NCBI RefSeq assembly: GCF_040807025.1
Contig: NC_090967.1
Span: 6,316,001-6,380,000 of the forward strand
From: Struthio camelus
Taxonomy: Eukaryota; Chordata; Aves; Struthioniformes; Struthionidae
DNA: 64,000 bases
Direction of reading: 5' to 3'
The translations under genes were made by a program, and so were the position numbers. Shown one piece after another: positions 24,080-62,800 of this stretch. Below the pieces are notes generated by a model. It was not told the DNA's origin. It saw nothing but the letters and a program-made list of their open reading frames with translations, and did not search any database. Within the stretch, counting starts at the first letter, position 1. Every line of letters starts with the position of its first letter.

Positions 24080-27083
<3,004 letters not shown>

Positions 27084-27989: not shown

Positions 27990-28625
27990 TGGGGGCTGGA
28001 CTGCCCCCCCCGGGGGTCTCGGTGACCGGCTGCAGGGCTGGGGGACTGGGCTGCGCCCCCCCGGGGTCCCGATGCACGGCTGGGGAACAAGGGGACCAGG
28101 CTGCCCCCCCGGGGTCCTGGTGACCGGCTGGGGGACTGGGCTGCCTCCCCGGGGGTCCCGGTGACTGGCTGGGGGACAAGGGGCCCGGGCTGTGCCCCTC
28201 TGGGGGGTCTCGGTGCCCAGCTGAGGGACAAGGAGCCAGGCTGCCCCCCTGGGGGTCCCGGTGCCCAGTTGGGGACCTGGGGGACCGGGCTGCCCCTCCG
28301 CGGGTCCTGGTGCCCAACTGGGGACAAGGGGACCGGGCTGCTCCCCCCGGGGGCCCCGGTGACCGGCTGGGGGACTGGGGAGCCAGGCTGCCCCCCCCCC
28401 GGGGGTCCCGGTGCCCGGCTGGGGACAAGGGGACCGGGCTGCTCCCCCCGGGGGTCCTGGTGCGCGGTTGGGGACAAGATGACTGGGCTGCTCCCCCCGG
28501 GGGTCCCGATGCCCGGCTGGGGGGCTGGGGGACCGGGCTGCGCCCCCCCGGGGTGCCGGTGCCCGGCTGGGGGGCAGAGGGGCCGGGCTGCCCCCCACCC
28601 CGGGGTCCCGGTGCCGGTGGGGACA
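27990..28625. repeat. GC-rich minisatellite in HAPLN4 intron 1, unit about 49-50 bp
   Basis: Around 12 units of the type GTCCCGGTGCCCGGCTGGGG-(ACAAGG)GGACCGGGCTGC followed by a C6-G5 run. On the minus strand the frames stay open for hundreds of codons because the unit lacks stops; this is not coding. The G-runs in every unit make G-quadruplex formation possible. Confidence 0.9.
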
Positions 28626-28896
28626 GGGGGCCCGCAGCTGCCCCCGCGGAGGTGCCGGTGCCGGTGCGGGGGGGCCGGGCCGGTGCAGTGTTGCAGTGCG
28701 GGGCACTGCGGCGGCAGCCCCGGGGCTGCGGGACGCCGGCGCCCGAGAGCGGACGGACGGGCTGGAGGGGGCTGGGGAGAGGGGTGGGGGGCCCGGTGCC
28801 AGCAGCAGCAGCCCCTGCCCGGGACCCCCGGGACCCCCGGCGCGACCCCCCGCGGGCTCCGCTGCAGCGAGCGGAGCCGCAGCGCCGCGCACTCAC

Positions 28897-29159: not shown

Positions 29160-29640
29160 GCGTGTGCACGGAGCGGCCCACCCGTGTGCACCCACCTGCT
29201 TGCACCCACCGCCACGCTGCACCCACCCGCCTGCGCCCACCGCCACGCTGCACCCACCACCCCGCTGCACCCACTGCCACACTGCACCCACCCGCCTGCA
29301 CCCACCCTGTTGCACCCACCACCCCGCTGCACCCACCCGCTTGCGCCCACCCACCTGCGCCCACCGCCCCGCTGCACCCACCACCTCGCTGTACCTACCC
29401 GCCTGCACCCACGGCCAACCCTCTGCACCCACCGCCATGCTGCACCCACTGCCCCACTGCACCCACCCCGCTGCACCCACCGCCTCACTGCACCCACCAC
29501 CACGCTGCAACCGCCACCCCGCTGCACCCACCACCACGCTGCAACCGCCACCCCGCTGCACCCACCCGCCTGTGCCCACTGCCATGCTGCACCCACCCGC
29601 CCGTGCCTGCCACGTGCCCTCGTGCACCGCTGCACCCGCT
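29160..29640. repeat. Minisatellite upstream of HAPLN4, unit about 17 bp
   Basis: Tandem CTGCACCCACCNCCNCG-type units, about 27 copies, vary only at a few positions. The array lies in the 0.9 kb between the HAPLN4 promoter and the TM6SF2 3' end. Open frames in it are repeat artefacts. Confidence 0.9.
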
Positions 29641-40429: not shown

Positions 40430-43400
40430 TCAGTAGTAAGGTCGCCGTGGATTGTTCTGTGGGGGAATAACAAGAGAAATTTAACCAAAATTGCCATCTT
40501 CAGAGAACAATGAGCATTACAGCTTAATAACTATCTGAGAACACCACTGAAATGCAACATTTCTGACAGTGAAACCTGCGATTTCCCATTTTCCCCATCC
40601 TTTCTAGGCCTGTTGGCATGCTGAAGATAATATAAGCTCTTGCAAACTCGAAAGCCTTTTGCAATCAGAAAAATGATTATTCAAAATAAACCACGCTAGG
40701 ATTCAAGGACAACCCATCAGCTTCCTTTAGGGGCAGCGTTTATACTTGGCAAGTACCAAATCAAACTGGTAGACCATAGAAAACAAAAGTGCATATCCAA
40801 AGATGTTTTGGTAATGAAGATTTGATTCAACATGAAAACAGAATTCAAGAGAAACTTTCAAAGCATTCGCTTTCTTGGCTAAGCATTAGAAACACTCCCA
40901 CCCTTTATAAAATAAGCACAGAAGGTTCAATGAATTTGTCACTGTGTCTAGCCTGGTTTAGGGACCACCTTACCAATGGATTTGGCCGGAACCGGTAGGC
41001 CAGCATCATTCTTTTACGGAACGCCTCATACTCATCATCCTCCTTGGTTAACTCGGCTGGACGATCAATGCCAAAACCAGCTCCATCCACAGCAGTAGTT
41101 CCCCTGTTTGAAAAGGGGGAACAAAGCCTCTGCAGTAAATAGATGTGACGGATCAACTTCCTGTTCACCAGAAATACCTGCTGCCTCCTGTATTCAGAGC
41201 TCAGAGAACAAGAACCGGGGAGCACTGGACGTCATCACACAGAAAGCACTGCATCAGGAGAGACAGCTATTACGGAAGGGCTTATTGCAGTTGCCACGTT
41301 TCTACCTTGCCCTTCCAAATCAATGACACTCGCTATTGTTAGATAGAAGCAGTAGTGTCAACATATATTTGCTTAACCTTTTAGCTCTGGTACAGGAATA
41401 TAGTCTATGTTTTGGATGCCTCCCTACCGAACCATGTTCTGACTGGCGGATTAACCTTTGGCAACTGAATGCACTGATTTGTACCTTGCTGATTGGAGGT
41501 AGACAGAACGTTAAACAAAGCACCTGCTCCCATGCCTTCACTCCAAAATAGCTCAGAAGTGAAAATGTTTCTTTTCTGTGCATGTTAGGCACCTTCCTAG
41601 CAACTCTTAGAGCATCAGAGATGGTAGAGCCATAGCAAATCACAACCCTTGCTCAATCCTGCGATGGCCAGGAACTGCCTTTTTTCTATTGTTTGCAAAC
41701 CTCACTTTTTTGATCACAGCAATCTTATTACAGGTCTTACTTGAGCGAATAAGCGCATTATCAGAGAAATTTTCCTCAGAAAGAAGAACAGAAGTGCTTT
41801 GTAGGCATATTCTGTATTGTGCAGTAAACAAACAACTGTTACTTATAAAAGGATCTAATGTTAAAAACAATTTAGAGTATTTCCTATCACCAATATTTGA
41901 TTTTTGAAGTTCAGCATATGCTACAGACAGATGATCCACCTAAAAAAATGCTAATCTATGTTTGGATGGAACTCTCATGTATGTAAGGTTTTATTACATA
42001 CAAAACCTGATCACATCAGAAAACTTCTGTGCAACAGAGTGACATCAAGAGCTGCATGATCACACTCAGAGCTCTTGGACAGGGGATAAAACATCTTTCA
42101 AATACAGGTCTAGCAGTATTGTTTACTAGTAAACGCCTTTTCATACACAGTATACCAGGAACTAATAAGCAGGCATTAAGAGCACTCCAGCCGCAAAAGG
42201 CATGTTCTTTGATATTTAAACAGATCTATTACTTTAAAGACATGGCAACGCTGACATTCCCTACGCGAGCTGCGGACAAGTGAGCTGGAGACAAGTATCG
42301 CCTTCATTTTACAGATGGGGAAACCGAGGCACAGAGGGCACCTCTCAGAAGAATATACCATGCAAATTGAAAGTAGAACCAAAATACTCTTGGCTCAGAT
42401 CATACCTGCCTGGAGTAAAGTAACAAACCGAGTCCTTTGGGGGAGGGGCAGGAGAGAGACACAGGGACACAAACAAACCAAAAAAAGAAACGATTTTTCT
42501 CCTTTGCTGAAAAGATTCTATATTCTGTTCAAGTGATGAATTGCAGTCATTCATTGCAGTTCCTTCCAAGGAAGCATCAGTTATTGGCCTAAGAGGAGAG
42601 GAACAGATCAATAGTGGAAGAACTCTGCTTACTTGCTGACTGGGTTTTTAATCCCCTGTCCATCCGAGCCAAGTCCCTCGCCTTCCTTCCAGCCCATCTT
42701 CATTAGCATTTGATAACCTATGTTTTCCACAGTCAGTTTGAACTCTTTATATTCAGAATAATCTGGCTCACGGCCTTCCTGCACAGAGACAAAAGGTAGC
42801 GTTGATTAATTTGTATACGTATATATGCACGTATCTCTGTGGGTTGAGGGGGAGAATCAACTTCAGCTACTGGAGGTGGCTGGACAGTTCTGGCAAAGAT
42901 TTAATAACTAGCATGATTTCTTGGGATTCCATTTCTGCACTACCACAGAGAAGAAAACAGGTAAGTGATAAAGCACCGCACAGCCACACAAGCCCTATAA
43001 CATAATCTGCAAGAAGCAGGGAATGCTACCATGAGATTAAGCTGAGAAATATTCAGCTCCTGAATTTAAAGTTGCTCACTGGATCAAGCTTCAGATACAG
43101 CTCTTATTTAAATCAACATCTCCAGGGAACCTCAGACCCCATGCTGGTTACAAGAAAACATTATCAGGGATGCCAGCACCAAGAAATTCTGCAGTTTAGG
43201 AAGAGTTGGCAGGTGTGAAGAGCTTTGCATAAGCTTTTTGTAGGCTTTATACTTTACTGCAACTGTCTGGATAAAAATTCAAATTTTCCTTGCTTGGCAT
43301 CAACAATCACTTATCCTAAACCACAACAGCAAACACATGGCAGGTAGTCTAAGAGGTTTGTCTATACTTTCCGCGAACCCCCCCAAATCCTGTCCAAATA

Positions 43401-46400
43401 GTCTGTGCTCTGATTTGCTACAGCTGTTTCTCTGCAAAGAGCAGAAAACCAACCCCTTACTTCCTACAGGAGGGTAACAGAGCTCCCATTGTCAGGGCAC
43501 CCAGAAGTAGCTCAAAGCTCCAAGGTGACCGACTACTGTGGAAGGGGCTGAACATGCTTGAAGCCTTTCTCTCATTTCTACTGGACAAGCCTGAAGCGTT
43601 GCTGCTGTGCCCCAAGAAATCTCCGCTATTTCACCTTTAACGCCTTAAATGTCTCCATGAATTTCTCCAGCTCATCAGGTGGAAGAAAGTCTCCAATGAA
43701 ATGTTTCCCTCTGCCCATCTGGGTCAGCTGCTCGGCCCACTCTGCCCAAGACACAGAGGAGAAAAGATAGCAATAACGCGGTGTTCTTCAACTTGGAAAT
43801 TCAGAGGGTTTTGTGAAGCATAAAGCCTCACAGGAACAGACAGATATTATCTCCACTTTACAAGCAGGGAAATCAAGGCACAGGCCAATGAAAAGCGACC
43901 CTGTAACTCTCGCTCTGACAACATGATCTCAGAGGCCTCCCTCTAGAAGCCTTTGTACAAACTGCAGAGCAAGCGAGACGCTTGCACGGCAGGCCCTCAC
44001 ACACCTCGCGTCTTGTCCATCTCCATGCGTCGAAGCTGATGCTCCCACGTCCCCAGCTCACTGTCCACCTCTTCATCGCTGTCATAGCCATGCTGGTGCT
44101 GCTGAATTGCCTTTTCCCACATCATCTGCATCTCCTGCATGGCTCGCTTGTGTTTCATGATCATATCATACATCTGCTGCATCTAAGGGAAGAGAAGCAA
44201 TAGTCCACCCAGTAAGAAAGTCAGTCTATAGGCAGCAGGGCCTGCCACAGAGGCCTGAAGAGTTCTGCAGTACAACCCACAGCTGCTTTAACCTGCATTC
44301 TGTATTGCAGGTACAACAAATTTCTGCAGGCAGTGCTGTTGCTTGATCTGATCAGCTCTCTTCTCAGATCAAACAGGAGTATTTATGCGCTGGTGCCTCT
44401 GAGAGGGGCATCTCGAGATTAGCACTGAGGACAGCTGCCATCTGATCATTCCCGCATAGTTTAAAACTGCCCTCACATCCCAGCAAAAGCCAATTCTGCT
44501 CTCTTTCCACCAGAGCTTGCACCTATCCACCCACCTTCTCCCCACTGCTAAAGCAGCACATAACCGGCTGCAGATGTGACACAACAGACCTTATAGATTT
44601 TAGGTTTTAGTGTGATAGGACAGCAATTGGCTGGCTTAATTCATATCCCCCAAAGTCCTGTAAGATATTTCTGCTGACTGCAGCATCACATGATTCTTAG
44701 GCTTTCAGCACAAACCCTAGAGATTTATTTGTTGGGCCACTGGGAAAATTTCTTTGCTATCTCCACCTCCATTTCCCCATCTAACCCAGCCATGCTGCAC
44801 TGTAATATGCTAGGACACAAATGAACTTGGAAATCACTTCAGGACATTACCTCCTGCTGCTCCTTCAGCTGCTTCTTCTGGGCTTCCGAGAGCTCTGTCA
44901 CACCCACTAAACCAACTGGTTTCCCTTTTTCATAACCAAGACCCTTGAGGTCCTGAACTGAAATAAGCACATGTTAAAAGATTTTCAAAAATCTGAGACA
45001 GCTGTTGACATCAGTAAAACCATATCTCAAGATCCCCTCAGGAAGTTTCACACTCATTTCATAGTTCCAGCATTAAGACATCTAACTCCAAATAGCGACC
45101 TGGTAGAATTTAGGGACTCACAGGAGCAAGAAAGCCACCAGGGCTCACCATCCCTGCCCGCCAGCTCACAGCATTCCCTCATTCTGGTCCAATGCTCTGC
45201 CCATACGCTGTTAGTGGACTCACAACTTACGTCTCACCTCCTTGGAGGTCAGGCTGCCTGACAATCTGCTAAACCATCCAGGCTTTAAAAATTATTTTTC
45301 CTTTCATCTTAATTCTCCTCACAAGGCTTCCTTACGGACCCCGTTCATTGCAAAGAGTGATACTTAATTATTCACAATTGAGTCAGAAGCTTATTTGAGA
45401 CTGTCAGCGTATTGTCTAATCTGTGCACGTAGGCGTATGCCGATTACTGTGTAAACAGTAACTTCATTCAAAATGGAAAGCAAATGACCACATTAAAGAC
45501 ACGAGCATTATCCTTCTTTGGAAGTCACCATTCCCCAAAGAGATTTTAGTTTCTAGTCTACAGGCTCAAGAATAACCTAGCCAGGGATGTTGATCCTCGC
45601 TTTCAAAGCAGGAGCATTTTAAGTCTCAGCTTGAGAATCCCACTGATGTATCCTCCTTTTTCTGCAGAGGCCCATTTGGAAGCTCCTGCTTTGGAATGAT
45701 TTTTGCTGCTGCATCAGATAAGGCCTGACATTAGATATTAAGATTACCTGGGCAGGGAACCTGCTGGTTTAAAACGACAGCACTCTGTGTTCACGGGTCA
45801 AGTCAAAAAAAAAAAAAAAAGACTATTTTTAATTGGTGCATCATGAAAAAGAGCAATAGAAACATTGGTGGAGCTGCAAAAGAGAGATCTGCAAAGAAGA
45901 ATGCCTTGCAAACCTGTTTCATATATATCTAGCAGGGATGGCAGCTCCCCTCTAAAGCACCTCAGCGTTTAGATCCCAACAGTTAAATATTTAAGGGATT
46001 AAAAGAAGACACACAACCACACTTGAAAATATGTTGCATTTTTCAATACAAAGAGAGGGATTTCTTTCTAATGACTGCAAAAGCCTCAGTTTGAATGCAA
46101 GTCCAGACTACATCTAAACGATGCTTCATTAATTATTCATTACCTATTAATTATGAAGCCCAATAATAATAGGATCATTGTTCATGACACCAAATCTCCA
46201 TGCAGCATGCTAATTAGGCCCCAGGGGTTGTCTTCTCCCTTCCTCTTACTCTCCCTCAGGGCAATTTTTTCTGAGCACTCATATCTCCCCTCCTTTCCCA
46301 CATGCTTTTGGCCAAGCATGTTATCATTGCAGAGTGGCTTCCTTACACTCCAGCCTCCCAAGGAGAACATAAAACAGTGCATCATCCCTCCCTCACACAG

Positions 46401-49400
46401 CTAGAGCCTAAGCACATTCACACCAGCGCCAGGAGCCTGCTCTGCAGGAAGAGTTATGTAAAACACCGCAAAAGGTTTTCTGAGAGAAGGGAAGCAAGAA
46501 GCAGCGTTACAGAAGGCCTGGTGCTAGGAAACACACTTTCAGCTCCAAGAAATAACAGCAAATAAAAAAAATAATCTATCCATTATTGGTTAAGAAAACT
46601 GATTTCTGTCTCACAGAGAACAGTGAAATTTAGAGACAGTTTTAATGAATAAGCTAGAGCTATTCCATGTAAAACTTGCAGCAAATAACGTTGCCCCGAA
46701 AGTTACGCGAGACTGGGGCACTTGAGCACCAGCCCTAGCCAGAGATTCACCTCCTGTCTCGGAGCACGGGAAAGCTTTCTCTGAATGCACAGAGGAAGAC
46801 TCTTTGCCCTTCACAGAGGTCACCAACTCTTTGGCTTAGTTCTGAATTGCATAAACACTCAGGCTAAGAGCCAGGCAAGGCTCAGGAGGCCCTGCTAACT
46901 GGTGGCTTGCCAGCATATATAACAACCTTAGGAGAAAGGTAAGGCTGTGGCATCATCTTTTACATCCCAGAAAATACACAGCACAGCTCCTCCTTGTGCT
47001 AAAACTACATCTGGTTTGTCTGACTGGTACGGTGTCTGCAGACTTGATGATGAGATGATGCTGAAACAGTCGCTGTAGACATTTAGCTCTGGGGGGTATT
47101 TTGTAGTCTTGGCCAAACGTACAACAATACATGCAGGAAAAGTTGACAGAAAGAGCAAAGCTCCACCTCAAGCCACATCTGAAGTTAGAAAAGTCTGTTT
47201 GCAAACAAAACCAGTCAATATATTTACATAAAAACAGACAATAAGATTTAAGCTCATTACAACAGGGTAGCACCAGGCAAACATTAGGCAAAAAATAAGG
47301 ATTTGCTTCTCAGTCTCGTGTTCAGCAGGCCTGGGAAAAAGAGCTGTTTTGCAATATATATTTCTTCTTGAATGACATCAGCTTTGCTTACAGGGTTAAT
47401 GGTGCAGTCTATCTGCAGCATTGGCAGAAGAATATCTGAAGGTTTATCCTTTACCCACATGCCCAAAGAGGAGCTTCTTACAACAGGAGTGAATGTCCTT
47501 TAAGGACAACAGGAGAAATAACAGTACAGAAGTGCCTGATTTTTATAGTCTGAAGATCATATTCAATCAAAACGAATCAGACCCAACCCAATCCAGTTTT
47601 AGGTTTCAGAATATTCAAATGATATCCCTTAATTTTCTATTAGTCCCCAGAGTCCACTAATCACAATATCCCTGTTCTACTCAGCTTTTCAGACAACATC
47701 AATAAATTTAAGAGTCTTGTTTCTATCCAAAACAGCTACATTTTCTCCTCTATATGATACCGATTTATTACTATGAGTAGACAGGAAAAGAATGAGACCA
47801 ACAGTCCTCCACTAAATCCAAAGAAATTGCTAAGAATACAAGGCTGAGATATGGATATTTAGGAACCAAAGCACAATGTGCAACTCTAGACTTCCACAGG
47901 ACCATGGGTGCAATTTGGTATTCTGTTCACCTGTCAGGTTAAAGATGTTAATTCTAGAAAGGGATTAGTTTACCTGAACCATTAAAAGAAACCTTCTCCC
48001 TGTAGAAGATTAACAGCAAATTAATGGTTGATTTGTTAGGCCTGGCAAATTGTTTACTGTCCTTTTCTTCTACTCAACACAAAGCCCTGTAGAAAGGGAG
48101 CATGAATACAGCTAGCATGTCCCCGTCTAATTAAGGGGAGGCTAAAAGGAAGAGCCGGGGAGATTTCAGCAGGAAGCATGCTGAAAGGAGCACATGGATA
48201 CCCTTGCAGCCCCCCACTGCAAAAGGAGGTATTAAGATGAAATTCTATACTTGTTTTGATAATACCTGCCCAGCTTCAGCATCTAAGCTTCATTACTGTC
48301 TGCAAGAAGAGAGGGAGGGAGGGAAGGAAGGGGGGGAAAAAAAAAAAGAGACTGTAGATGTACAAAATGAAGGAAGAGCTTTGCATCTGATTTCTGGTCT
48401 ACTAGAAACAGCAGGTCAGGGTCAAATGAATGGGGCAGCCAGGCTGGCATCTTGTCTTATACATACAAGTGAGATGTACGGACAAGACTTCTGTGTAGGG
48501 GTGCGATCAGTAAACAGAGCTTCAAAATTACAAAGAAACTTAACTTCATCTACATTTGAGGTGCTGCGTGAGGAGCTAGAGTCCTTCCTTCCTGACCTCT
48601 GCCGCAATCAGATACCACAGTATATACAGACAACACTACATCTTATCCAAGCTTAACAAAACTATCAATATTTGAGCAATTATCTCCTCTAAAACCCAGC
48701 CAAAGCAGAAGACCCATTGACTTGGAGTAAAGAATTTTACAGGACGACCATGTGTTGAGAATTATCTGTGGTCTCAGCCTGTAGCTCAGAAAATTATACC
48801 TTGTTTTACATTACTCGTCCCACTTTGTCTGTTCTGCTATTGCTTTTTGAAATAAGTCCTTATTGAGACAGGTATTTATTACTTTTTCTGCGACTCTAGA
48901 CTCATACCATTAATCTCCTCAGTTCGCCAACATCAACTACCTTATCTTGTGGCTTTTCTTTCTCTTTTTCATATCCTTTCCCCATACCACGCTAATTGGG
49001 CAAAGGATTCAGATACACCCCCTTCAATGTCTGCGCTCACCTGATGTCACTGGATGACTCAGTTTTTGTATGCATCTCTGTCTACCTAATTACCTATCTG
49101 CACATGCACTGATGGGCCAGAGTTCAACCTTTGAGAGCTCACTAGAAATGCCTAGAATGGAAGAATTATCTTCCAATACTCAGAGTGAGCTGCACCTCCC
49201 GGGTGAACTTGGCAGGTGAAGTAATAGGGGCATCAGCCTCAGCACTGGGAGAGGACTGTGAACCCTGACTGTAATCAAATGAACTGAAAGGGGTATGAAT
49301 TTGAACTGGAAGTTATACTTCTGTCTCCCAGCACCTGAGGAACAGCTATTCTTATTTAGCCTTCTGATCAGTCAAAATAAGATGGAAGTGCTACCCAGGG

Positions 49401-52400
49401 ATTTTAATCTACCATGGGGAATAAGCACAGTCAGCCTTTGATATTTGTTTTCTGACAGTCTCTCTTCCTGAAGTGAAATAGCCCTAAATAGCATACAAGC
49501 TGAGGCTGTAATGAGCTACAGCCCAGCAGGGTTTTAGAGATAGCTGAAGAATGATAAGATCCAGTCCCTGGTGTCAGCAAGATAAAGCTGTTTATCTGGG
49601 TTTCCACATAGGGAGAGTTAGCTGCTAGACCTGGCTTAAAGATATAGGGCTAGGGACCGAGAAGATTACAAGAGATAGACTTCTCAGGTTTCCTGTTTAC
49701 ACAGCCAACGAGGCCAAGGCAGAACATACTCCCAAAGAAAAATAGCTAATCAACCCAATATACAGACCCACTAACCTGAAAGCGGGGAGGGAGAAGAATC
49801 CAACTGATGCTGGACAAGCTGTGGGAGAGGCAATTCAACCTTGTCTTCCTCTGGCCCCCACCTGCTCTTCCGCTTCTTTTTAGTAGTGCCTGTGGCAGTA
49901 GCTGTCGCAGTAGCAGTAGCTGTGGTTGTTGCTGCTGCTATTGTTGTAGCAGTAGTTGTAGGTGTCTGATTAGATGGAGTCAAAGAGGATGACGGTGAGG
50001 GTGAGGGCAAGGGTGAGGGCGAGGGCAAGGACGATAAGCACGATGGTGACGGTGATGCCTCTGGAACGGTCTTCCTTTTCAGACTAGTTTCTAGATGCAA
50101 GGGGGCACACACGGAGCTGGTTTTGGCCTTACGGAACTCCTCCAGTTTCTGCCGGTAATACTTGTAGCCTTTGCTGTTTGGCTCATATAAAAACCTAATT
50201 AAAAAGAGAGAAAAAGCTTTTGTACGTTAACAGTCATATCCAGGGGTTGACCTATATCACAGATTGGTCACGGCTTCCCTTTTCTACAATTTGTGCTTGC
50301 AAAACCAGCCTTCCCACACAGTTCCTTACTCTCCAGCACCATCCTGTGTATATGTCTGTGCAATGCAGGGCTCTGCGTGCTTGTGCAAGGTAGACTGCAA
50401 GCTTTTGGGATTAGGAAGCGTATTTCCCATTCGTAAGTGAACTACAACTATTTACGGTGCCCAATAAACACACAGTACTAAAAAGGATCACATTACATCC
50501 GTAGAAAAGGAGGGTCCTCCCACAGAATACACTTGCCTTCCAGAACACGTTTGGAAAGATTGCGAGGGCTCTATAACACACCAGGTTCCAGTTCACAGAA
50601 GAAAAACAAAAATAAAACCCCTATTCAGGTCTTACCAATAGAAATGCCAAACCGCTGGCTAAAGAAACTGCTCCCACCCTCTACTCAACCTGGATGCCTA
50701 GACACTAGCAGCCTGTTTAATTTTACCATGACTCCTCCTGCTGCCTCATACATAAAAACATTGCTTCAGTTGCTACCCCTTCCAGAAATAAGCCTCTCTG
50801 ATCTTTTGGTTGAAATAAAACTCCTTAATCTCTGTGGGAAGAACAGGAGTGGTCCTCAGTCTAGCAGCTACATAAAAATCAACACGCTAATGTTGGTTAC
50901 AAATGTGTTATTTTGGGAAGCTTCTCCCCAGTTTAAATACTTTAAGCAGAAACTTTGTCTCTTTATAACTCCTCTACAACCTTCCCTTTTTAGAAGATCA
51001 GTTTAATACTCTCTTCTGAGAGAAGAGACACTCTCCTGCAGAAAATGGAAAAGGCCTGTTACCTGCTACATCTATTGCTGCTATGATCCCCCACAGAACA
51101 CAGGCAAACACAAACCCAATCTCTGATGTATTTTAAAATTCACTAACTGTTGTCTTGTGCCCCTCAATTTGATTAACAGCACTAACTTCAAAGGGAATTG
51201 CTTCGGGACTGAACACAGGGCAGAACTGGACACTCTCTAAGGGAAGACTGATGAAATCCAAACAGAGGAGACAGGGTTTAACTTGACTGTGCTCAGATGG
51301 GATCATGAGTGGGGCTTTAAGAAAATAATTTTAAAGGAAAATAAATAATGAAGCAGCTCAGATATTAGCACATCTGTCTAATATTATTCACAATTATTCA
51401 CAAGGGCACTGCTCCAGAGGGCCAGAAGGCAGCAAATAAAATGCCAAAATTTCAGCAACAAAATAAAGCTTGCTGAGTCTCACTTCGCTCCCAAGGAGCG
51501 CACCAAATTGTTTGTAAGGGCAGAAAAATGAAACACGCATGAGACCAAAGGGAGACATTAAACAGGTGCCAGTGAATGCTGAAGAGAACAATTCACATCT
51601 GATAGGCTGAGAAAGATTTTTCCGAAGGGGGACCTAACGGTGAAGGAGCGCTACCTGCAAGTTAGTGAAGATGCTGTGTAAAAAGCAACCCAGGGAATTA
51701 ATCAGACAGCAGCAGTGAGAATGAGTGGTGGCTGGGGGCCCACAGCAAACAATCAGCTGCAGGGAATAGTATAAAGGTTAGAATTATACTAGTACATTGC
51801 AGCAGAAAGGCGATGGGGAGAGAATGAAGTTGTAAATTAATTTTAGGGAAAGCTGTCATTGGAGGAGAAGCACCAGACAGCCCGTTTAAAAAATCGCCAC
51901 CCTTTCACAATGCTTTGGGCTTGACTAGCCAAAGGGAGTATCTTGCAGTACAGAGCAAATAGAATGGCAGTCCCACCGCTTTGTAAAGCCTTGCTCTGTG
52001 GAGCGAACAACACTTCTGGCACAAATCAGCGTCTGCTACGAACAACGAACACTAACCTATTTGGATGCTAAACAGATACATGGAAGAGAGCCCCTGAACC
52101 TGTTCTGAGCTCATACAGACTTCCAGGCAGGACTTGGGCTTAAAGACAGCAAAAAGAAATAGACAAAGACAGATTAAAAGAAGAGGTAACGCACAGGTAA
52201 CAAATGGATCAGCTGATTGGAGGACAGGCCTCCAGTTTCATTATTTCTAGCACAAGTTTAGGAAAATATGTATTCATTCCTTGTAAATAAAAAGGAAGGC
52301 CTGTAGCAGGATAATGAAGAAAGGGTAACAAGATCAGGAAGAGCCTTTAATGTGACAAGCAGCCTAGAAACGTAGCATGGAAAGAGCTGTAGGAGAGAGG

Positions 52401-55400
52401 GACATCAAGATAGACAGAAGAAACAGGTAGAGCTGGACAAGCAAGGAATATAATCCAAAAGGACTTGGCTACAAACACACATTGCATATGTTTACAAGTT
52501 AGTTCGAGTAGGGTTAACGGCAGATTTCTTTGTTCTCTTCCCAGCTTTGACCCTGATTCTTTCTATGGCTCTGGGCAAATCGCTTCCTCTCCTCGCACCT
52601 TGGTTCAAACCGTGACGCTTAAATAACGTTTCCAAAGCTATTTCAGAAACAGCTTGGAAATGCAAGAGTATTACTGCTAAAATTGCACTGTCACTTGTAA
52701 CTTCAGACTTACCGCAAGTTTGTCTATTATTTTCCTCAAAAAAGGCCCTGCCAAGCTCTCTGCCCTCCTTTCCTCCCTCCCCCAATACACTCAGCTGCAG
52801 GTTTCTTCCTTACCTGAAAGCATGGTTCTCTCGGTTGTTCTGCAAGGCAATAGCTTCCACCTCAGGACCCCCGTCTGCTATGAACCTGGCCAGTTTCTCA
52901 GCAAAGTTCTTTGTCTCTTCATCCTCTGGGGGTGAAACTTTAAGCAGGCTGTCAGTACTGGGCCCAACTCACACAAGCAACAGTCAAAGCCTATCTGTTC
53001 TAAGAACCCCAAGAGTAGAATAAGGGCAAAAGGTCGAGTTTATTTTTTTAGAAATATTACACATAAACAGTCAAAGAGTTTATAATCACAAAAATATGAT
53101 ATTGCATAAAGTGGTACAACAACTTTGTAATCAGAGGAGCGCCCCTTCACACATCAATTTCCTCTATGCCAGGAGCTAGATGAGAGCAGATTAACAAACA
53201 AACCAGCTTTTGGCTTCAAAGATGGATGTTTGTTTCTCTCTATTGCAGAGGAAGCCTGCTTCTTCCTCTTGTGTTAGGCCATTTTCCATAGCATTACACC
53301 TCAGTACTCTCAATCATCTCTAGTTTGAAGTATTGGCCACTGAAGTTGAGAGGCAAAATGAGAAGGCCCTAGAAAAAGCAGCAAAACTAATAAGGCACAG
53401 TAACCCCACTTGCACCTACTGTCACTATGCATCTCCTTGCCATTTTAGGGGAGGGTTGTAGGACAGAAGAAACTCTCCATGGGATAGTCCCAATCCTCAC
53501 CTGGAAGAGGTGGTTACTGCAGCCTTAGTCCAAAGGCACAGAGAAGGCTCAACCCATTAATATCTCAAGCATATTTGATGTTTATAAGGAGCCGGGCAAA
53601 TATGTTATTTAGCCAAGACAGCCTTATATGACATTTGCTACCTGCACAGTACCAGTGCCAGTACTCCAGCGTGCTGGCACAGGACCAGGAGGCAGAAGAC
53701 ATGATTATAAGCCATGGGCAAGTCATAACCTTTCCTTGCTTCAATATTCCACACCTGTAAAGTATGGATAATACTGCTTAGCTTCCAAACTGTTGTAACA
53801 GTTGATATCGGTAATAGACTGTAGGCTGAAAGGGCTTGTTAAGTCATGATTTGTTTGAGCTGTTAACTCATCAGCATGACAACTAAATTGCATTAATGCT
53901 CCTTTTCACAGGAAAGGAAACCGACACAGAGAAGCTGAGTCATTTGCTAGGGCCACTCAACAGGCCTATAGCAGAGGCTGGACGAGAAGGCCTAACGCCT
54001 GCCTCGCAGACCACATCTCACCCACTGAACGCCTTGCCTTCCGTCTCCTAACACGGTTAACCAGGTTCTGCGCCCGTTTTGCCAACAAATAGGTATCGTG
54101 GGCGCAGATCATCCACTTCTGCTGTTTTCCCACCTGAAACCACAGCCCCCCTATTTGCAAGGATTTATGTCCCAACAGAAGATAAAAGCTTCAGATAGGG
54201 AAACAGCAGCAGAGATGGGCATGTTCAACAAACAAACAAAACGTTTTCACTGATAACGATTCAAACAAGAACAACTGAGAAAAAGCATTTTACTCAATGT
54301 ATTTTCAGGACTGAAAACATATTTCCCAGAACACAGACAAGAGAATCATTTTCCTTTTAGTTCACTTCGTTAAGGATTTTGGAGAACGCCAGGGAAGCCT
54401 CTTTCATGAGCCTGTATATCGAGCATGACACAGTTTGGGGCGGGCTTGGGAAATAATCATTTTGGCACAAGAGTTTGACGCCATAGTGTCACTATCTCCT
54501 TCCATTTGTGACTTTTTGAAATTTTATTTACAGGCAGCAGACTGACAGCCAAATATCCACCTCAACTGTTTCCAAAACAGATCTAACAAGCAGTTACAGA
54601 GAGTGGGAAAGGCACAGGTAGCTTCTTTAATCATAGACTATTCTCCAGATCCCAGTCTTAATTACCTTTCTCAGAAGAGGATGCCTGAGAACTTTGATTC
54701 TCTTTTCTTATCTCTGCCACTTTCTTTCTGTAGTAAAGGAATTCTCTGCTGTTCTTATCATGTAAAAACCTAAGGCAGGGGGTAGGGGAAGAAATGAAGG
54801 AAAAAGGGCAGAAAATATGCATCAGCAACAGCTATACACAAACACTGATACACTAGGATGTAAATAGCTCAAAAGACTAAATAGAAAGAGAAGAAAAATT
54901 ACTCAGAATGCACTTATAATTTGAATTATAAGATCTTTAGCATCTATAAATGCATTTCGCTCTAAGGTCTCATATCCAAATGTTTTGTGCCACTTGACCA
55001 AGGGAAAAAAAATATATATAGATCAGTCTCTCCCTCTCATATAAGAGAGAATCGTATGTCTACAGCTACATAGCATATCGATGGCAGAGGAGATGGAACA
55101 GTCTGGAGATCCAGTCCAGTATCCCCAAATGCTAGATGATGCTGGATGCGCAGCCAGATCTCCAAGTTTTCTTCCTAATCCTGCTAACTGATCTGTATCC
55201 TCAGCAATGTCACAGTACCACTTTTGGTCTCAGCTTCCCCCATTTTAAGACAATTATTCAAACAGATCTCAAATCCACCAAAGGATAATTAAACCAAAAA
55301 CATCCATAAGAGCTGCATATATAAGGCTGATATTTTTCTCCTACAAAGAGACAGTGTGCTGCTTTGGAAGACAAGAGTCATCACCACACTTACGAAAAAG

Positions 55401-58400
55401 CTGGGTTATCCTTGTAATCTTCCATAGCGACCTTCTCTAATTCTGGTCCCCCTTCAGCCACGAACCTAGCCAGCTTTTCCACCACTTGTCGGGTCTCCGC
55501 ATCCTCTGGGGGTAAAACTTTAAGCAGGCTGTCAGTACTGGGGTTCAACTCACACACCAAACAGGCAACAGGTACATTACTTCTAAGAACCACAGAGGCA
55601 GACAAAAGTAGAACGGGGATGGGAAGAAAGAGGATGAAATGGGGGATCCAGTCTTACACAGCTGTACAAATCACAACTCCTAGGTTACCATCAGTCTCTG
55701 CACTCCCCTTCTAGAGACTAAGTGATCTGATTCGATGTTTTCCCCATGCAGAAAAGCTTAAGACTTGGATCACCAAAAATTAGGGTACAACTTTAATTTG
55801 CCACAGAATTTGGTTCTGACAATTCTACTCCACACAAAACACACGATGAGAAGGGAAGAGGAATTTGGATTGTTTTTTAATAGCCACATTACTCATGAAA
55901 GATTACAGCTTCCAGTTCCTAAGACATCAGTCTGTATCCAGACACCAGAAACAGCTTGTGTAGCTGCAGCATACAGTTCTTCCTCCTGACACATGCCCGC
56001 CCATGGCTCAACCCTCACTTGGAGCGAATCCCAGAGAGGAGAGCTCCATCTCCAAGAAACTGCACTTTGGTTTCTGTGCCAAGAAAGGAACCCGCTAACA
56101 CTGATCGTGATCGAGGATCTGATGTAGGACACGTTCAGTGGGAACTAAACAGACATTTACCTAGACAGCAATGCTTCAGATAAGGTGCTGAACAAAGAGC
56201 ACGCAGGAGCAGAGTTGTCCACACTGACCTAGACTAAGCTTGAACCCAGGACCTGTTAATTAAGGATCCACAGTCTGTCTTTATTCTCTGCAGCCAAAGG
56301 CTGTATCTCACATTCCTGCAGTGTGTTTCACACTTACGTTCAGACTTGTTAAGATTATGCTTTTAAAAATTCCCATCAGAAACAGCCTTTTTTAAAACTT
56401 AGTGAAATGAACTACGACACAGAGCTTAGCGTGACTTATTTAGCAACTCCAATCTAATTTTATACCTGATTTTTCTTGTATGTGTCTTGATTATTTAGAT
56501 CATTAAGCAAACGTGCCTTCTGGCTTCCTAGTCTATCGTATTCAGAGAAACTTGGTTATTTAAACACTGCAATATTCTTCACTGCTTTTCTATCCCTTTT
56601 AAAGCAGTCAGGACCTCCAAGGTGAGATTTTCTAATAAAACTTTGAACATAGATGGCAACTTTGATTTTACCTGGTCATTATTTCATAACTTGTATTTTA
56701 TATATATACATATATGCATGTGTATATATATGTATACACACACACACACATATACATATATACATATATAGAGATAGATTTTTCCCTCCACACATCCATT
56801 CTCAAATGCAGACATTTCATTTTCTATCATTTAGAAATTAAAATTCTGCTTCAAATATAGGATTTTATACATATATAGACAGACAGATAGCTTTTTAAAG
56901 ACAACCATGCACTAGCCAGGACAGATTTCAACTGCAGGGGAAAAAAGGAAAAAAGAAGCAAGCAGAATTCTTACAATTAGCAAGAAATCAGGCTCCATTA
57001 ATAGCAGAATATATTCCTTCTCTCTGCACTACTTTTAGAGATTATACACTGGTCAAGTGCTTGCCTTGATAGCTCAGAGGCATCCCCCCCTTGGAATCCC
57101 CTATGCACAAAACAGGCTTGGGTCACTTGCCATAGTTGGGCCATCTCCCACACTGAGCTCAGGCTGGATGAATAACACCCAACAGCTGGCAGGGAGTTCC
57201 CTCTTCATAGTCCATGCAGCCCTTAGCTTTTTTGCTGAAGCTGGCTATGGAGTCCACTAGCATTAACGGTGTCATTTGTACTTCAGGATGCATAAGTCTG
57301 CACACAGGATATGCAGGGAGGGGACAATTCCCCCTCCCTCTCCCCCAAATCCAACTGCTAATGGGAAAGCATTGAGGGAATCCCGTTCCCACACTCAACC
57401 CCTATCACCAGGGTAACTGAACCTGAATAAACAGCATAGCACAAGATGTCATTTACCTTTAATTTCCAACCACTGCTCATAATCCTCCTCCTCATCTTCA
57501 TCTGGTGACTGAAACACACTGAGGCGGTTAACGACCGGGGTCTGTTTGGAATGGGAGTAGTTCTTCACTTGGTGCAACATGCTGCTCAGGACCTGACCAG
57601 GGCGCTTCCCAAACAGCATAGGTTTCTTCCCAACGTTTGATGCAGAAGTGTTTGCCGAGTTATTAGTAGAACCTGGAGGAGGTTCTTAGAAAAGAACGAG
57701 GGGAAAATAATTCCTGCGCGTCCTTACTGTTTTAATCTCAGAAGGTTACAGATAACAACTTAGGCAGTAATACAGCTGCAACAGGCAGTTATTTTAAGAG
57801 TAAACTGAAGACATTAACTGGTAAAAGCCAGGTAACTAAATGAAATTTATGATGGTTTCTACAAGGTAAAATTCAAGCTAGAAAAGCAATCCTTGTCTTT
57901 ATAGCACGTACTGACGGCAAAAGTGCAAACGTCCCTATCGTATACCATCTTAAAGAAAGACTTCAATCCAAACTTAAAGGGGATTATCATTGTTTTAGAA
58001 TTTACTCAGACTGGTGACAGCTTATAGCTAAGTTTCTAATGTGAACACACATGGAGGCAGCTCATACAAGGCCAGTATCATCAAGAGAAGAAGGCCTCCT
58101 GTTGCTCAGAAGTTGACCTACCAGTACTTGACTTTTCCTTCTGCAGCTTGAGAAACTGCTGGAGGAAACTGCCATCATTAACAAACTTGTTGGAAACAGA
58201 GGCTTCATTTTCAGTACCTTCATCTCTAAACAGAAAAAGAGAAGTAGGTGATGGTACTCAGCATCTTCCCCAGCCCCCTCATACGCATTTATTTTAGACA
58301 GAAAACAAGATAAACATCACTGATTACTAATCTCTCTCAGTTAACGTTGACAATGCATCTACCTTTTTGAAAGCACAAGAACCATTCAGCTTGCTGCTTA

Positions 58401-59248
58401 CTGCCTTTACCCATGCTCTCCATTTGGCTTGTTTGCTATCACACTGAAACAGGATTTCTACTTGCACTGTTATGCTACTCTGCTTTTACAAACTCCAGGC
58501 AAGCATTTAGTCAGAGAACTGTGTTAACTCTTAGGAGTTTCTATGTTAACATGATTATAACACAGATAACAAACAGGAAGCAGAAGGGAAACAGTAAAAG
58601 AGTGCTAAAAATGTGATCCTTGTTAGGACACAGTTGTTCTCACTAGTATGTGAAAAATTGCAAGCCTGGGTAGATCAATTAAACTTCAAGTATCCCAGCA
58701 TTGCAAATTCTGACACGCAATTATTCAGTTATCAATTTCAGCCTTCTTACTGCTTGCCTCCAAGCACGAGGCCTTCATAAGACTTGCCTATCCAATTTCG
58801 TTTGACACGTTTTCTGCCAGTTAAGCTCAAACCCTAAAGGCACCATTATTGACACGTACTCTCCAAACAGGGGCAGCTGTTGTATGCTCAGATAGTTCTG
58901 CCTTGCTTGCTGCTCCAGCCTAGCCTCAATCTCTCTTTTTTTCTGCGCTATCAGCTCTTCCTGATGAAGGATGTTCACGTTCGTCTTTGCCGACTTAGAC
59001 TGCGCGACCCCAAACCACCTGCTGGCCTTCCCTGCAGAAAAAGGGGGGGGGGGGGGGGGGAAAGCAAAATGAGGGCCGGCGCAGGCCCCGAGCGGCCGCG
59101 CCTGAGCCGGCCCCGCTCTCGCAGGGGGGCCGTCGCCCGGCCTCGGGGCGCCCCCTCAGGCCGTCCACGGCGAAACCTGGGGCCGGGCCGAAGGGCGCCG
59201 CGGAGCCCCCGGGACGGCCGTACCTGGAGCATCCCTGGGGTTGTCCAT
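40430..59248 (-). CDS. SUGP1: SURP and G-patch domain-containing protein 1 (SF4), 664 aa
   Basis: Fourteen coding exons, minus strand: 59248-59224, 59031-58860, 58225-58122, 57684-57457, 55517-55394, 54769-54666, 52937-52814, 50194-49776, 44957-44851, 44182-44005, 43741-43635, 42778-42633, 41103-40974, 40456-40430. All phases agree and the frame is open to NNPRRPYY. Order: N-terminal motif [18 protein letters not shown]; acidic [19 protein letters not shown]1 (177-235); SURP2 (253-315); Ser/Pro then Thr/Ala low-complexity stretch; nuclear-localisation-like [18 protein letters not shown] (about 399); coiled Gln/Met-rich region; acidic [21 protein letters not shown]-patch (about 580-630). The protein is a U2 snRNP/SF3B1-associated splicing factor that recruits DHX15 through the G-patch and supports correct branch-site use. 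It is 19 residues longer than human, mostly in exon 8. The last exon codes only eight residues. Confidence 0.96.
41104..42632 (-). other. SUGP1: SUGP1 intron 12 (contents)
   Basis: AT-rich intron between the G-patch exon and exon 13. Apart from a MIR remnant at 42292-42352 I see only short unsupported frames and TA-rich stretches. Confidence 0.45.
42292..42352 (-). repeat. MIR SINE fragment
   Basis: TTCATTTTACAGATGGGGAAACCGAGGCACAGAG (in parts) is the reverse complement of the MIR segment CTCAGTTTCCTCATCTGTAAAATG. It is a short and strongly diverged piece in SUGP1 intron 12. Confidence 0.65.
43800..43925 (-). repeat. MIR SINE fragment
   Basis: ATTATCTCCACTTTACAAGC, GGGAAATCAAGGCACAGG and the following bases follow the antisense MIR consensus with many changes. 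It fills much of the 263-bp intron between exons 11 and 10 of SUGP1. Confidence 0.55.
44958..49775 (-). other. SUGP1: SUGP1 intron 8 (4.8 kb, contents)
   Basis: AT-rich intron. It holds an A16 run (45805-45820), a purine run of GGGA/GGAA units (48306-48352) and scattered short frames. One of these (48204-48656, 150 codons) has no coding signature. No complete transposon was recognised. Confidence 0.45.
48306..48352. repeat. Purine-rich simple repeat
   Basis: GAGGGAGGGAGGGAAGGAAG is followed by G7 and A12, forming a polypurine tract in SUGP1 intron 8. Confidence 0.9.
52535..52625 (+). repeat. MIR SINE fragment
   Basis: TTTGACCCTGATTCTTTCTATGGCTCTGGGCAAATCGCTTCCTCTCCTCG (in parts) follows the sense MIR line CTGTGTGACCTTGGGCAAGTCACTTAACCTCTC. 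It is diverged and lies in SUGP1 intron 7. Confidence 0.45.
52814..53030 (-). other. SUGP1: SURP2 first exon plus its duplicated-looking upstream intron flank
   Basis: The exon is 52937-52814 ([18 protein letters not shown] and on), 124 bp, entered in phase 1 and left in phase 2. Upstream intron bases 52938 to about 53020 align with the flank of the SURP1 exon (55518 to about 55600). The first 27 intron bases plus the first 17 exon bases are almost identical between the two copies. A good branch-site match (TACTGAC) stands 18 bases before a weak acceptor (CTGCTTAAAG). Confidence 0.8.
53690..54045. repeat. Two MIR SINE fragments in opposite orientation
   Basis: 53690-53800 follows MIR in the plus direction (CATGGGCAAGTCATAACC, then ACCTGTAAAGTATGGATAAT). 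53880-54045 follows it in the minus direction (TTCACAGGAAAGGAAACCG, then CACAGAGAAGCTGAGTCATT). Together they form an inverted SINE pair inside SUGP1 intron 6. Both are old. Confidence 0.6.
55394..55605 (-). other. SUGP1: SURP1 first exon plus its duplicated-looking upstream intron flank
   Basis: The exon is 55517-55394 ([18 protein letters not shown] and on), also 124 bp with the same phases as the SURP2 exon. Its acceptor context (TACTGAC branch-like motif, CTGCTTAAAG end) is the near-identical partner of the one at 52938-53020. Confidence 0.8.
55605..57456 (-). other. SUGP1: SUGP1 intron 4 (contents)
   Basis: AT-rich intron with a TA/CA microsatellite at 56697-56778. I found no coding or RNA gene. 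The 3' end carries the flank shared with the SURP2 intron. Confidence 0.45.
56697..56778. repeat. Compound (TA)n/(CA)n microsatellite
   Basis: Alternating TATATACATATATG, GTGTATATATATG and a (CA)8 run make up an 80-bp low-complexity stretch in SUGP1 intron 4. Confidence 0.95.
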
Positions 59249-59807
59249 TTTGGAGCTCCCGTCCCACACTGCACCGCGGCTCCGCGGGCGGGAAGGGAAG
59301 GGAGAGGCGGAAGCGCCGGGGCCGCAAAGGCTTCTGGGAGTTGTAGTCCGGCAGCTTTTTCCGCCTCCCCCGCAGCGTCTCTGAGGGCAACGAGGCCGGA
59401 GAGGGGGGTATAACCCGCTCCATGAGGGGCTGTCCCCCACCACCCGCCCCTCTCGACCCCCTGCAGGGCCCGAGGGGGGGAGGACTACAACTCCCATGAA
59501 CCCCTGCGCGCGGAGTCTCACTCTCGCCGCCGCCTCTCGCGTTGCTCGAGGAGGGAGGAAGGAAGGAAGTGGGGGGGGGGAAAAGGACGCCGTTTCCCAT
59601 CAGCCTCCGCGCGCGCGTCGCGCGGGACGCCCGCCCCCACCTCTGGCGGGAGGACTCCATCTCCCAGGCGCCCCCGCGCCGGGCGGCGGCCGCGGCGGAC
59701 TCCATATCCCGGCCGCCTGTGCGCGCGGCGCCGCGCGGCGCCCCGCCCCCTTTCTCTCCCCCTCCCCCTCCCCCCCCCTCCGCCCGTGTTGTCGCGGCGG
59801 CCCTGAG
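59249..59807. promoter_or_regulatory. SUGP1-MAU2 bidirectional promoter with ZNF143-type sites
   Basis: Only 559 bp separate the two start codons. The block is CpG-rich and without a TATA box. The 13-mer ACTACAACTCCCA, which fits the ZNF143/THAP11 motif ACTAYRNNNCCCR, occurs at 59335-59347 (minus) and 59484-59496 (plus). Degenerate copies ACTCCATCTCCCA (59654-59666) and ACTCCATATCCCG (59699-59711) follow. Such sites are typical of divergent housekeeping promoters. A YY1-like ATGGCGGC overlaps the MAU2 start codon. Confidence 0.8.
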
Positions 59808-62800
59808 ATGGCGGCGGTGGCGGCGGGCGCCGCGGGCTCGGCGGCCGGCGCGGCCCCTCAGCAGCAGCCGCCGCCTCAGCAGCAGCAGCCGCAGCAGGCG
59901 GCGGGCGGCGCGGCGGGCTCCGGGGAAGGGGGTGGCGGCGGCGGCGGCGGAGGAGGAGGTGGCGGCGGCGGCGGTGGCGGCAGCGGAGGAGGAGGAGGAG
60001 GCAGCGGCGGCGGCAGCGGTGGCGGCGGCGGTGGGCCCGGCCCGGGGTCGGGGTCAGGGTCGGGCGGTGGCGGCGCGGCCGGGGGCGAGTCGTGGTACCT
60101 GGCGCTGCTGGGCCTGGCCGAGCACTTCCGTACGTCGAGCCCGCCCAAGGTGCGGCTCTGCGTGCACTGCCTGCAGGCCGTGCTGCCCCGCAAGCCCCCG
60201 GCCCGCATGGAGGCCCGCACCCACCTCCAGCTCGGCTCCGTCCTCTACCACCACACCCGCAACGGCGACCAGGCCCGCGGGCACCTGGAGAAGGCGGTGA
60301 GCGGCCGCGGGCCCGCGTGGGGCTGGCCCCGGGGGGCTGGGGGGCCCTGTCAGAGGGGCCGGACTGTGATACGCGTACACTAACCCGCTGTCTTCTCTTG
60401 CAGTGGTTGATATCGCAGCAAGTATCCTTTTCCCAGCTGCCTGGAAGGAGAGCGTTGCTGCCTGGCCGACTCGCTTTTGCAGCGTGGGCGCTGATACAAA
60501 ACACCTCTGCAAATAAGAGCCTGGCCCTGGGGATGGGGATTTGGCCAGCATTTTTAACGTGCTTCCGCAGTTGTGGGTTGTTTTCTGAGTGCTCATCCTG
60601 TATTAAGGATTTTTGGGATGTTGGAGTGTTGCTGTGTTGCAGGCGATGCTTAATATTTACTTAACTCTGCTGCTAGATTCCCCAGTTTGAAGATGTTAAG
60701 TTTGAGGCAGCGAGCCTTCTGTCTGAACTGTATTGTCAGGAGGTGAGTGCGCTGAGGGCAGTTCAGAAAGTGTCAATCGTGGGCTGTCTGATCTTGGGGC
60801 TGAAGGGCTGCTTCTAATCTTACTGCTTTGATCTTAGAGTAATATGTAACTATTGATGGTAGGATTTACCAAATCTTTAGAGCTCGGGTGCAGTGTAACT
60901 ATAGAGCGCTACAATGTAAATCTGAAAGACTTATTTTTTCATTCTTGCAGTTGCCTCTGCCCTTGCAACGTTCGTCTTCCATAGCAAAGGAAGTTTACTT
61001 CGCCAGAGTATTTCTTTAGCCCTTACTAGGCTAATTAGCCCGTGACAGGCTAATTTAGGAAGTGGGGGGGGGGGGGGGAGAAGGGAATAGAAAGTTTTCT
61101 GAGGCTTCTGTTGTGTTCCTTGATTATATCTATTCTTTTTCTCTAGGAAAGCTTTAATTGGTCTTTTCTTTCCATAAAACAAATCCTTGCCTTTTCTAAT
61201 ATGCATTTTTTCCTGTGTGTGAGAGAGTAGCAAACAAAGGAGTTGATCAGCTAATACTTCTAAGCAAACTTTGAGTCAGTTTTAGGTGTATGGTTCTGCA
61301 TGTCGAATATTTGTTTATGTTGCTTTACTTGTTTTAAGGTTCTTTGTTTAGCAGACTTTAAATGGGGATCAGCGCAGAACGCATCTTGTTTAAGTGTTCT
61401 TAGTGATGAAAGTTCCTGGTAGCCTGTTTTTTTTATGTTGACTAGGATGTGTGTTTCCGTTTCAGAATTCAGTGGATACAGCAAAGCCTCTGTTACGCAA
61501 AGCCATTCAGATCTCGCAGCAGACTCCGTACTGGCACTGTAGACTACTTTTTCAACTTGCAGTAAGTGATTTATGCTGATACCCTGTGGCTGGGAAAACA
61601 TCTGTATAGTTCTTAAAAAGCGATTGCTTTTGTACTTTTTGGAAGGAAAAAGAGCTTGAGTGTCTCTTGTTTGCAATCACTGGTATTAATGCAGAAACAA
61701 AAGAAGAAGAATTCGTGCTGTGAAATAGTGATACATTGCTAGACTGTTCTTAAAGTGCTACTTTTCCTGAGTGACCCAAATTGTTAAGATGGAGACCATA
61801 TCCAGAAAACTGATGATCAGTAGGAGGAGCAGATTATTGCTGACAAACTATTCCCTGTTTTTTTCAGGTTATGCCATTTTTCTGCTGCTTTTGTAGAAGA
61901 CAGGAAAGGTTCCTAAGGAGCCTTAAGCTGTTTGACACAAGAGCTGAGGGAGTTAATTGCTCTGTAGAGGTACTTTTCATCAGAGAGATAGTTAGCAAGT
62001 AATTTTATCTTTGAAGATTGTCTTAATGGTCTCCCGTACTTGTCTTCCTCTCCCTTCCTGATGAGCTTAAACAAGCAGGCTGACTTCCTTGAAGAGGAAT
62101 TGCTGAGCTCCTTTGTATAGTTTAGGAACACTGAAACATGGAGAACCTTACTTTCCTATCGATTAAAGGACAAATGTTTACTCTGCAATGAGTTAATGCC
62201 TGAGTACTCGCAAGGAGCTTAAATGTTTTTTTCTCAGTGCCTTTGAATAGATCCTTCCTCAAAGCTTGACATTCTTTACTGATTTCTTTTCTGTGTGGTA
62301 TTTCCTTTTTGGCTTTTGCTTGAGCAGAGGGGCCTATATGTCTCACAGCCTCACTGTATGGTCTACCGTTTTTTGGCTTTCTACCTGAGGTAGAAAGAAA
62401 AGAAAGACTTTTTTTTTCCTTTTTGAGAATGCCAAATGTTCCTGGCAAATGGGTCTAAGTTCAGGTGATACATTTTACATGTTCCAGTTGGATACTTTGT
62501 ATCTCATGTAAAGCACAGGAGTAATTCAATTAAAAAAAATTGCTAAGCGAGTTCACTATGAGAATGCTGACCCATTATGGCTTTTTTTCCTCCCTTTTCT
62601 TTCAGCAACTACATACACTTGAAAAAGACTTAGTATCTGCATGTGACCTTCTAGGAGTTGGAGCAGAATATGCTCGGGTGGTGGGATCAGAGTATACCCG
62701 GTAGGTTCCTTACACTTTTTTTTTCCCCCCTCCTACAGAAAATATTTTGGTTTGCTCTGGTTTTATTTAGAGATGTGCCTTGTGATTGCTACATGGGCTT

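Follow-up and report, generated by a model that had tools for sequence, protein, structure and literature searches.

Conserved intron flanks around regulated exons, as in poison-exon-type control, form a known class of element in splicing-factor genes. This class is described, for example, in PMC11357089. Choice between neighbouring AG dinucleotides involves the splicing factor SUGP1: according to PMC7790757, mutant SF3B1 uses cryptic AGs 10-30 nucleotides (nt) upstream of the canonical AG, and altered SUGP1 reproduces most of this pattern. Here we analyse a 64,000-nt stretch of Struthio camelus DNA (assembly GCF_040807025.1, contig NC_090967.1, positions 6,316,001 to 6,380,000 of the forward strand; hereafter the window), in which the acceptors of the two SURP exons of SUGP1 share a short, nearly identical cassette. 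The cause of this likeness lies between two known processes. We tentatively prefer, at a probability of about 0.48 and from sequence comparison, that both acceptors are kept alike by the same splicing demand, over gene conversion or template switching between them.

The locus resembles the conserved flanks of regulated exons in that a splicing-factor gene is concerned, about 80 intron bases and the exon edge are alike, and skipping of the exons would change the frame; it differs in that the likeness is between two paralogous acceptors of one genome. As in gene conversion between tandem duplicates, a sharp-edged tract of high similarity lies in strongly diverged copies, but the tract is only about 98 nt long, the exons are about 57% identical outside it, and one genome is compared. 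With tandem AG pairs sensitive to SF3B1 and SUGP1 it shares AGs 12 nt apart and a strong branch-point-like site near a weak upstream AG, whereas here the protein sequence implies that the upstream AG is the canonical one, the AG at +12 being a candidate. The twin acceptors are not reported in the accessible parts of the literature found, mainly non-subscription papers (including PMC10760632, PMC7790757, PMC11431473, PMC4666396 and PMC10835012), and our literature search found no paper linking SUGP1 with gene conversion.

A cassette shared by the two SURP acceptors

SUGP1 occupies the minus strand of the window, as identified from its exon translations and from the matches of both SURP domains to solved chains: 1ug0 matches SURP1 and 1x4o matches SURP2, both chains being named splicing factor 4 and, we take it, from mouse. 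The intron flanks of the SURP exons therefore lie at higher coordinates than the exons themselves. That SUGP1 carries two SURP domains is stated in published accounts. The duplicated unit comprises two exons, 55517-55394 followed by 54769-54666 for SURP1, and 52937-52814 followed by an exon from 50194 for SURP2 (Table 1). Because each SURP exon is 124 nt long, loss of either would shift the reading frame.

The last 25 intron bases are identical before SURP1 and SURP2 (CCCAGTACTGACAGCCTGCTTAAAG), and the run extends to 28 with the first 3 exon bases; an initial annotation of this DNA had given about 27 identical intron bases, which holds for the identity and not for the length. The alignment of the last 78 (SURP2) or 80 (SURP1) intron bases has 82 columns, of which 65 match, 11 are mismatches and 6 contain gaps. 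Two upstream blocks recur in both copies with little shift, TGTGTGAGTTG from -38/-39 and GGTTCTTAGAA from -71/-74, and the further 50 or so intron bases that had been said to align do so; TGTGTGAGTTG is the reverse complement of the region given there as AACTCACACA, and TTCTAAGAACC is the forward-strand form of GGTTCTTAGAA. On the exon side, 17 of bases 1-18 match, against 60 of 106 over bases 19-124, reproducing both the single difference at the exon start and the steep fall beyond it that were first described.

The likeness was also set against chance. The local score of the 100-nt intron flanks is 70, with a maximum of 33 among 5000 dinucleotide shuffles, so that the near-identity of the flanks beside diverged exons is confirmed and stands far above shuffled intron sequence. 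The part from -29 to -100 alone scores 29, a value reached by 3 of 5000 shuffles and by 3 of 19615 random 72-mer pairs drawn from 44000-59000. All 17 of the 11-mers common to both introns lie close to the junction: their starts fall no more than 74 bases from it, and their offsets in the two copies differ by at most 3. When up to 3 mismatches are allowed, a 20-mer of the core finds 2 matches within the window, both exact, against 0.00 expected.

The likeness also ends abruptly. Proceeding outward to about -80, consecutive intron segments give 25/25, 19/26 and 19/25 ungapped matches; the next two are no better than chance (scores as high arise in 462 and 290 of 500 shuffles), and for the segment from -139 to about -200 this happens in 49 of 500. 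Third codon positions are identical in all six of codons 1-6 and in 9 of 35 in codons 7-41, which is near random. The cassette, about 98 nt in length, is sharp-edged on both sides inside otherwise strongly diverged copies, and such an abruptly bounded rise in similarity is one of the features expected of a gene-conversion tract. It exceeds ordinary splice-site consensus: while no shuffle in 1000 reaches the score of 70 for the SURP acceptor flanks, the SURP donor flanks score 17 (reached by 125/1000) and the acceptor flanks of the following exons 18 (reached by 85/1000), neither showing likeness. These three junction pairs make up the set scored, the donors after the following exons lying outside it.

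Table 1. Coordinates of SUGP1 features in the window
Feature	Position	Strand	Remarks
SURP1 exon, 124 nt, phase 1 to 2	55394..55517	-	matches 1ug0; PF01805 match
SURP2 exon, 124 nt, phase 1 to 2	52814..52937	-	matches 1x4o; PF01805 match
Exon after SURP1 (ends ...SSSEK), second half of SURP1 domain; acceptor flank without shared likeness	54666..54769	-
SURP1 acceptor cassette, 80 intron and first 18 exon bases	55500..55597	-
SURP2 acceptor cassette, 78 intron and first 18 exon bases	52920..53015	-
SURP1 identical core, 25 nt, TACTGAC branch-point-like site and AAAG acceptor	55518..55542	-
SURP2 identical core, 25 nt, TACTGAC branch-point-like site and AAAG acceptor	52938..52962	-
GGTTCTTAGAA block, SURP1 flank	55581..55591	-
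GGTTCTTAGAA block, SURP2 flank	52998..53008	-
12-nt segment TTTTACCCCCAG between two in-frame AGs, SURP1	55506..55517	-	AG offsets 0, +12
12-nt segment TTTCACCCCCAG between two in-frame AGs, SURP2	52926..52937	-	AG offsets 0, +12
TTCTAAGAACC, exact complement of GGTTCTTAGAA block, at likely acceptor of exon before SURP1	57681..57691	-	acceptor inferred from frame

Build of the acceptors

Both acceptors carry the motif TACTGAC, which had been noted near the junction and spans -20 to -14, with its adenosine 14 bases before the last intron base. We call this motif branch-point-like on the basis of the branch-point consensus. The run leading up to AAAG is pyrimidine-poor in both (0.59, against 0.88 for the two following exons), and AGs occur at the same offsets in the two copies: -20, -11, 0, +12 and +14. 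AAAG is presumably the acceptor used, because the reading frame points to it and the solved chains contain VSPP; splicing at the +12 AG would remove V-L-P-P or V-S-P-P in frame. The sole difference within exon bases 1-18, TTTC/TTTT, leaves a pyrimidine in front of the second AG while costing a Ser/Leu change. No Rfam family matched at its gathering score in 43000-60000.

Restriction to the two SURP exons

In the 1.45-Gb (gigabase) genome, a 20-base core has exactly two exact matches, those of SURP1 and SURP2, and among the places listed genome-wide none has one mismatch and 14 have two. Places within three mismatches number 172, against 24 for a reversed control pattern, an excess that would favour chance or a mobile element as the source of the likeness and that may reflect composition. 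Against such a source, 13 of the 14 two-mismatch places, scored against the cassette, reach 30-35, compared with 99 for the true SURP pair; they therefore have little in common with it beyond the core and are no cassette copies. A 301-base query over SURP1, in a search that passes over very common words, found in the genome only SURP1 itself and SURP2 at an expectation value (E) up to 0.001. We considered and largely rejected an origin in a dispersed repeat or mobile element, as further copies appeared neither with this query, nor in the core search, nor at the 13 two-mismatch places scored. Assembly error, in the form of a duplicated exon end, had been raised as a possible artefact and is unlikely because 11 substitutions and 6 gap columns separate the two intron flanks. 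With none of 5000 shuffles reaching the flank score and the exact core present only twice, we consider it very improbable that the likeness stems from chance, from a mobile element or from an assembly error.

A Pfam SURP scan of the genome gave 15 matches (loci L003-L017), with L008, L011, L013 and L014 belonging to SUGP1. The 11 matches outside SUGP1 reach a best local score with the cassette of 27, against 101 for the true pair, in a comparison that carries no shuffle control; the acceptor region upstream of the SURP match was inspected at 6 of the 11 loci. One match (C26:6195252-6195341, in locus L012, G000:C26:6193752-6196841) lies about 175 kilobases from SUGP1 on the same contig and, judging from its neighbourhood, is probably SUGP2. 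Neither a 25-base core in prokaryote contigs nor a 23-base core in viral contigs was found, collections that are uninformative about birds, and SURP proteins searched against them gave 179 pattern-matching stretches in prokaryote and 20 in viral contigs, none of them relatives. Within the set of junctions, SURP loci and core-like places that we compared, the sharp-edged cassette is restricted to the two SURP acceptors of SUGP1.

Splicing constraint and copying as possible causes

We tentatively favour a shared splicing constraint on the grounds of the nearly invariant core, the fixed AG layout, the pyrimidine-keeping exon change, the pyrimidine-poor acceptors and the exon edge in the solved chains. 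By this account, the SURP unit of SUGP1 (the SURP exon and the next exon) would have been duplicated in tandem long ago, and its exon bodies and introns would then have diverged to the point where third codon positions outside the cassette are now random. Some 98 nt round each SURP acceptor would have been retained because both exons need the same unusual splice signal, which would consist of TACTGAC as a strong branch-point-like site with its adenosine 14 bases off, the weak AAAG, the in-frame AG at +12 and the two upstream blocks. Selection on splicing would thus hold the cassette, with TACTGAC as the branch point used and AAAG as the acceptor used, and the cassette may set the inclusion level of the SURP exons. 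As for the consequences of skipping, a review (PMC11431473) states that skipping of human SUGP1 exon 8, an exon not matched here to a SURP exon, leads to nonsense-mediated decay.

The distribution of differences within the cassette is consistent with selection on the core. From -25 to +18, 1 of 43 positions differs, against 11 of 51 ungapped distal positions (Fisher p 0.005), and for intron bases only the counts are 0/25 and 11/51 (p 0.013), the cuts between core and distal flank having been chosen post hoc, after the identical run was known. With the core cut three columns wider and gaps counted as differences, p is 0.15.

The other process to be weighed is copying, in which gene conversion or a microhomology template switch would have moved some 98 bases, roughly -80 to +18, between the SURP acceptors well after the exons were duplicated. 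The flank would have decayed since, and the splice core and codons would be under ordinary purifying selection. We regard this as a serious contender, though ranked second. The edges are sharp on both sides, third positions falling from 6/6 in codons 1-6 to 9/35 after them, and codons for the same amino acid are identical in 5/5 cases within the tract and in 7/18 beyond it (Fisher p 0.024). The distal flank has decayed with insertions and deletions, and its shared blocks show no significant clumping (permutation p 0.35 with the longest run as statistic, 0.09 with the two longest), as expected of a neutral copied piece. Several points weigh against constraint: these unclumped blocks, a distal part without a known role, and a predicted folding of the region that does not exceed that of shuffles (z 0.39 and 0.56). 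The SURP exon of the probable SUGP2 has an ordinary pyrimidine-rich acceptor (TGTTTTTTGCAG), so SURP exons as such do without the cassette. Finally, VSPPE may be kept for the sake of the protein and not of the RNA.

Copying meets difficulties of its own. Classical conversion needs long, near-identical homology to start exchange. The homology now present round the tract is poor, with 60 of 106 exon bases identical and flanking intron no better than shuffles, although its state at the time of the event may have differed. Two of the three cuts show the core to be less changed than the flank, so that selection would be needed in any case, and the tract has to stop at codon 6 because codon 7 is copy-specific in both. 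A recent event is further opposed by the distal flank, which already differs at 11 of 51 aligned bases and in 6 gap columns.

The solved chains bear on the age of the likeness. Between 1ug0 and 1x4o, residues 1-5 are alike (VSPPE, 5/5), residue 6 differs, and residues 7-13 match at 1 of 7; the VSPPE segment precedes the Pfam SURP match, which starts at residue 10 in SURP1 and 11 in SURP2. The two chains thus show nearly the edge seen between the exons here, which a lineage-restricted event would not give, and such copying is therefore disfavoured as a whole explanation. SURP1 here reads PPEDAE, as initially annotated, and the PPEGAE cited for comparison is what 1ug0 reads; the Asp at residue 6, in place of the Gly of 1ug0, is like that of SURP2 and had been offered as a mark of conversion. 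The sharing is correct, and the argument drawn from it is thin: identity between the paralogues here that is absent between the solved chains occurs at positions 6 and 9, the reverse occurs at position 2, and position 9 lies outside any single copied tract because position 7 is copy-specific in both. These amino-acid sites appear balanced between the readings. The initial annotation had proposed either recent conversion or a shared splicing constraint. The localised likeness that it described stands and neither cause is proved, while a recent, lineage-specific conversion is disfavoured by the distal differences, the divergence of the exons and the VSPPE shared by 1ug0 and 1x4o.

A combination, in which a constrained cassette was occasionally re-homogenised by copying, would account for both the sharp edges and the age. 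It would also take up what each process leaves over, namely the neutral-looking distal flank under constraint alone and the edge shared by 1ug0 and 1x4o under copying alone. Since it requires two causes, we consider it unlikely.

A complementary block and other features of the window

The exon before SURP1 has, at its likely acceptor, a sequence exactly complementary to the GGTTCTTAGAA blocks (Table 1). Predicted duplexes reach -17.4 and -22.5 kcal/mol, energies that stand without a control. The chance that any of the 17 shared 11-mers would have a complement in the gene is about 0.06, and the pairing idea is therefore kept only as a lead. The same likely acceptor, at 57668-57691, contains a 7-base inverted repeat (AGAACCT/AGGTTCT), together with a pair of in-frame AGs spaced by 12 nt.

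Elsewhere in the window, GC-rich minisatellite arrays with several overlapping unit lengths occur at 20603-21296, 28001-28662, 29177-29597, 680-955 and 15019-15402. Dispersed repeats at 16142-16293, 24142-24347 and 25273-25471 are about 69-76% alike, with two of the three pairings inverted, and are possibly an old interspersed repeat.

Implications for SUGP1

The published AG choice by SF3B1 and SUGP1, together with the reported skipping of exon 8, gives ground for a more specific speculation, to which we assign a low probability: the twin cassettes might act as an autoregulatory sensor, in which the level of SUGP1 would shift acceptor choice or the joint inclusion of the SURP exons and so feed back on itself. 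SUGP1 would help to choose among branch points and AGs separated by a few bases, and the two SURP exons would each offer such an overlapping pair, TACTGAC with the weak AAAG, then a CAG 12 nt on. CTTAA and a pyrimidine run could serve the CAG at +12, giving an output with or without V-S/L-P-P, and selection on one sensor read twice would hold the copies alike.

If the cassettes are constrained, as we prefer, SUGP1 would contain two coupled, unusually built acceptors in the gene of a factor that itself acts in branch-site choice, which would bear on the self-control of SUGP1 and be of relevance to SF3B1-mutant cancers and to lipid-associated skipping of SUGP1 exons. If they were copied, the locus would show, in a small and clean example, how the acceptors of old tandem exons can become homogenised.

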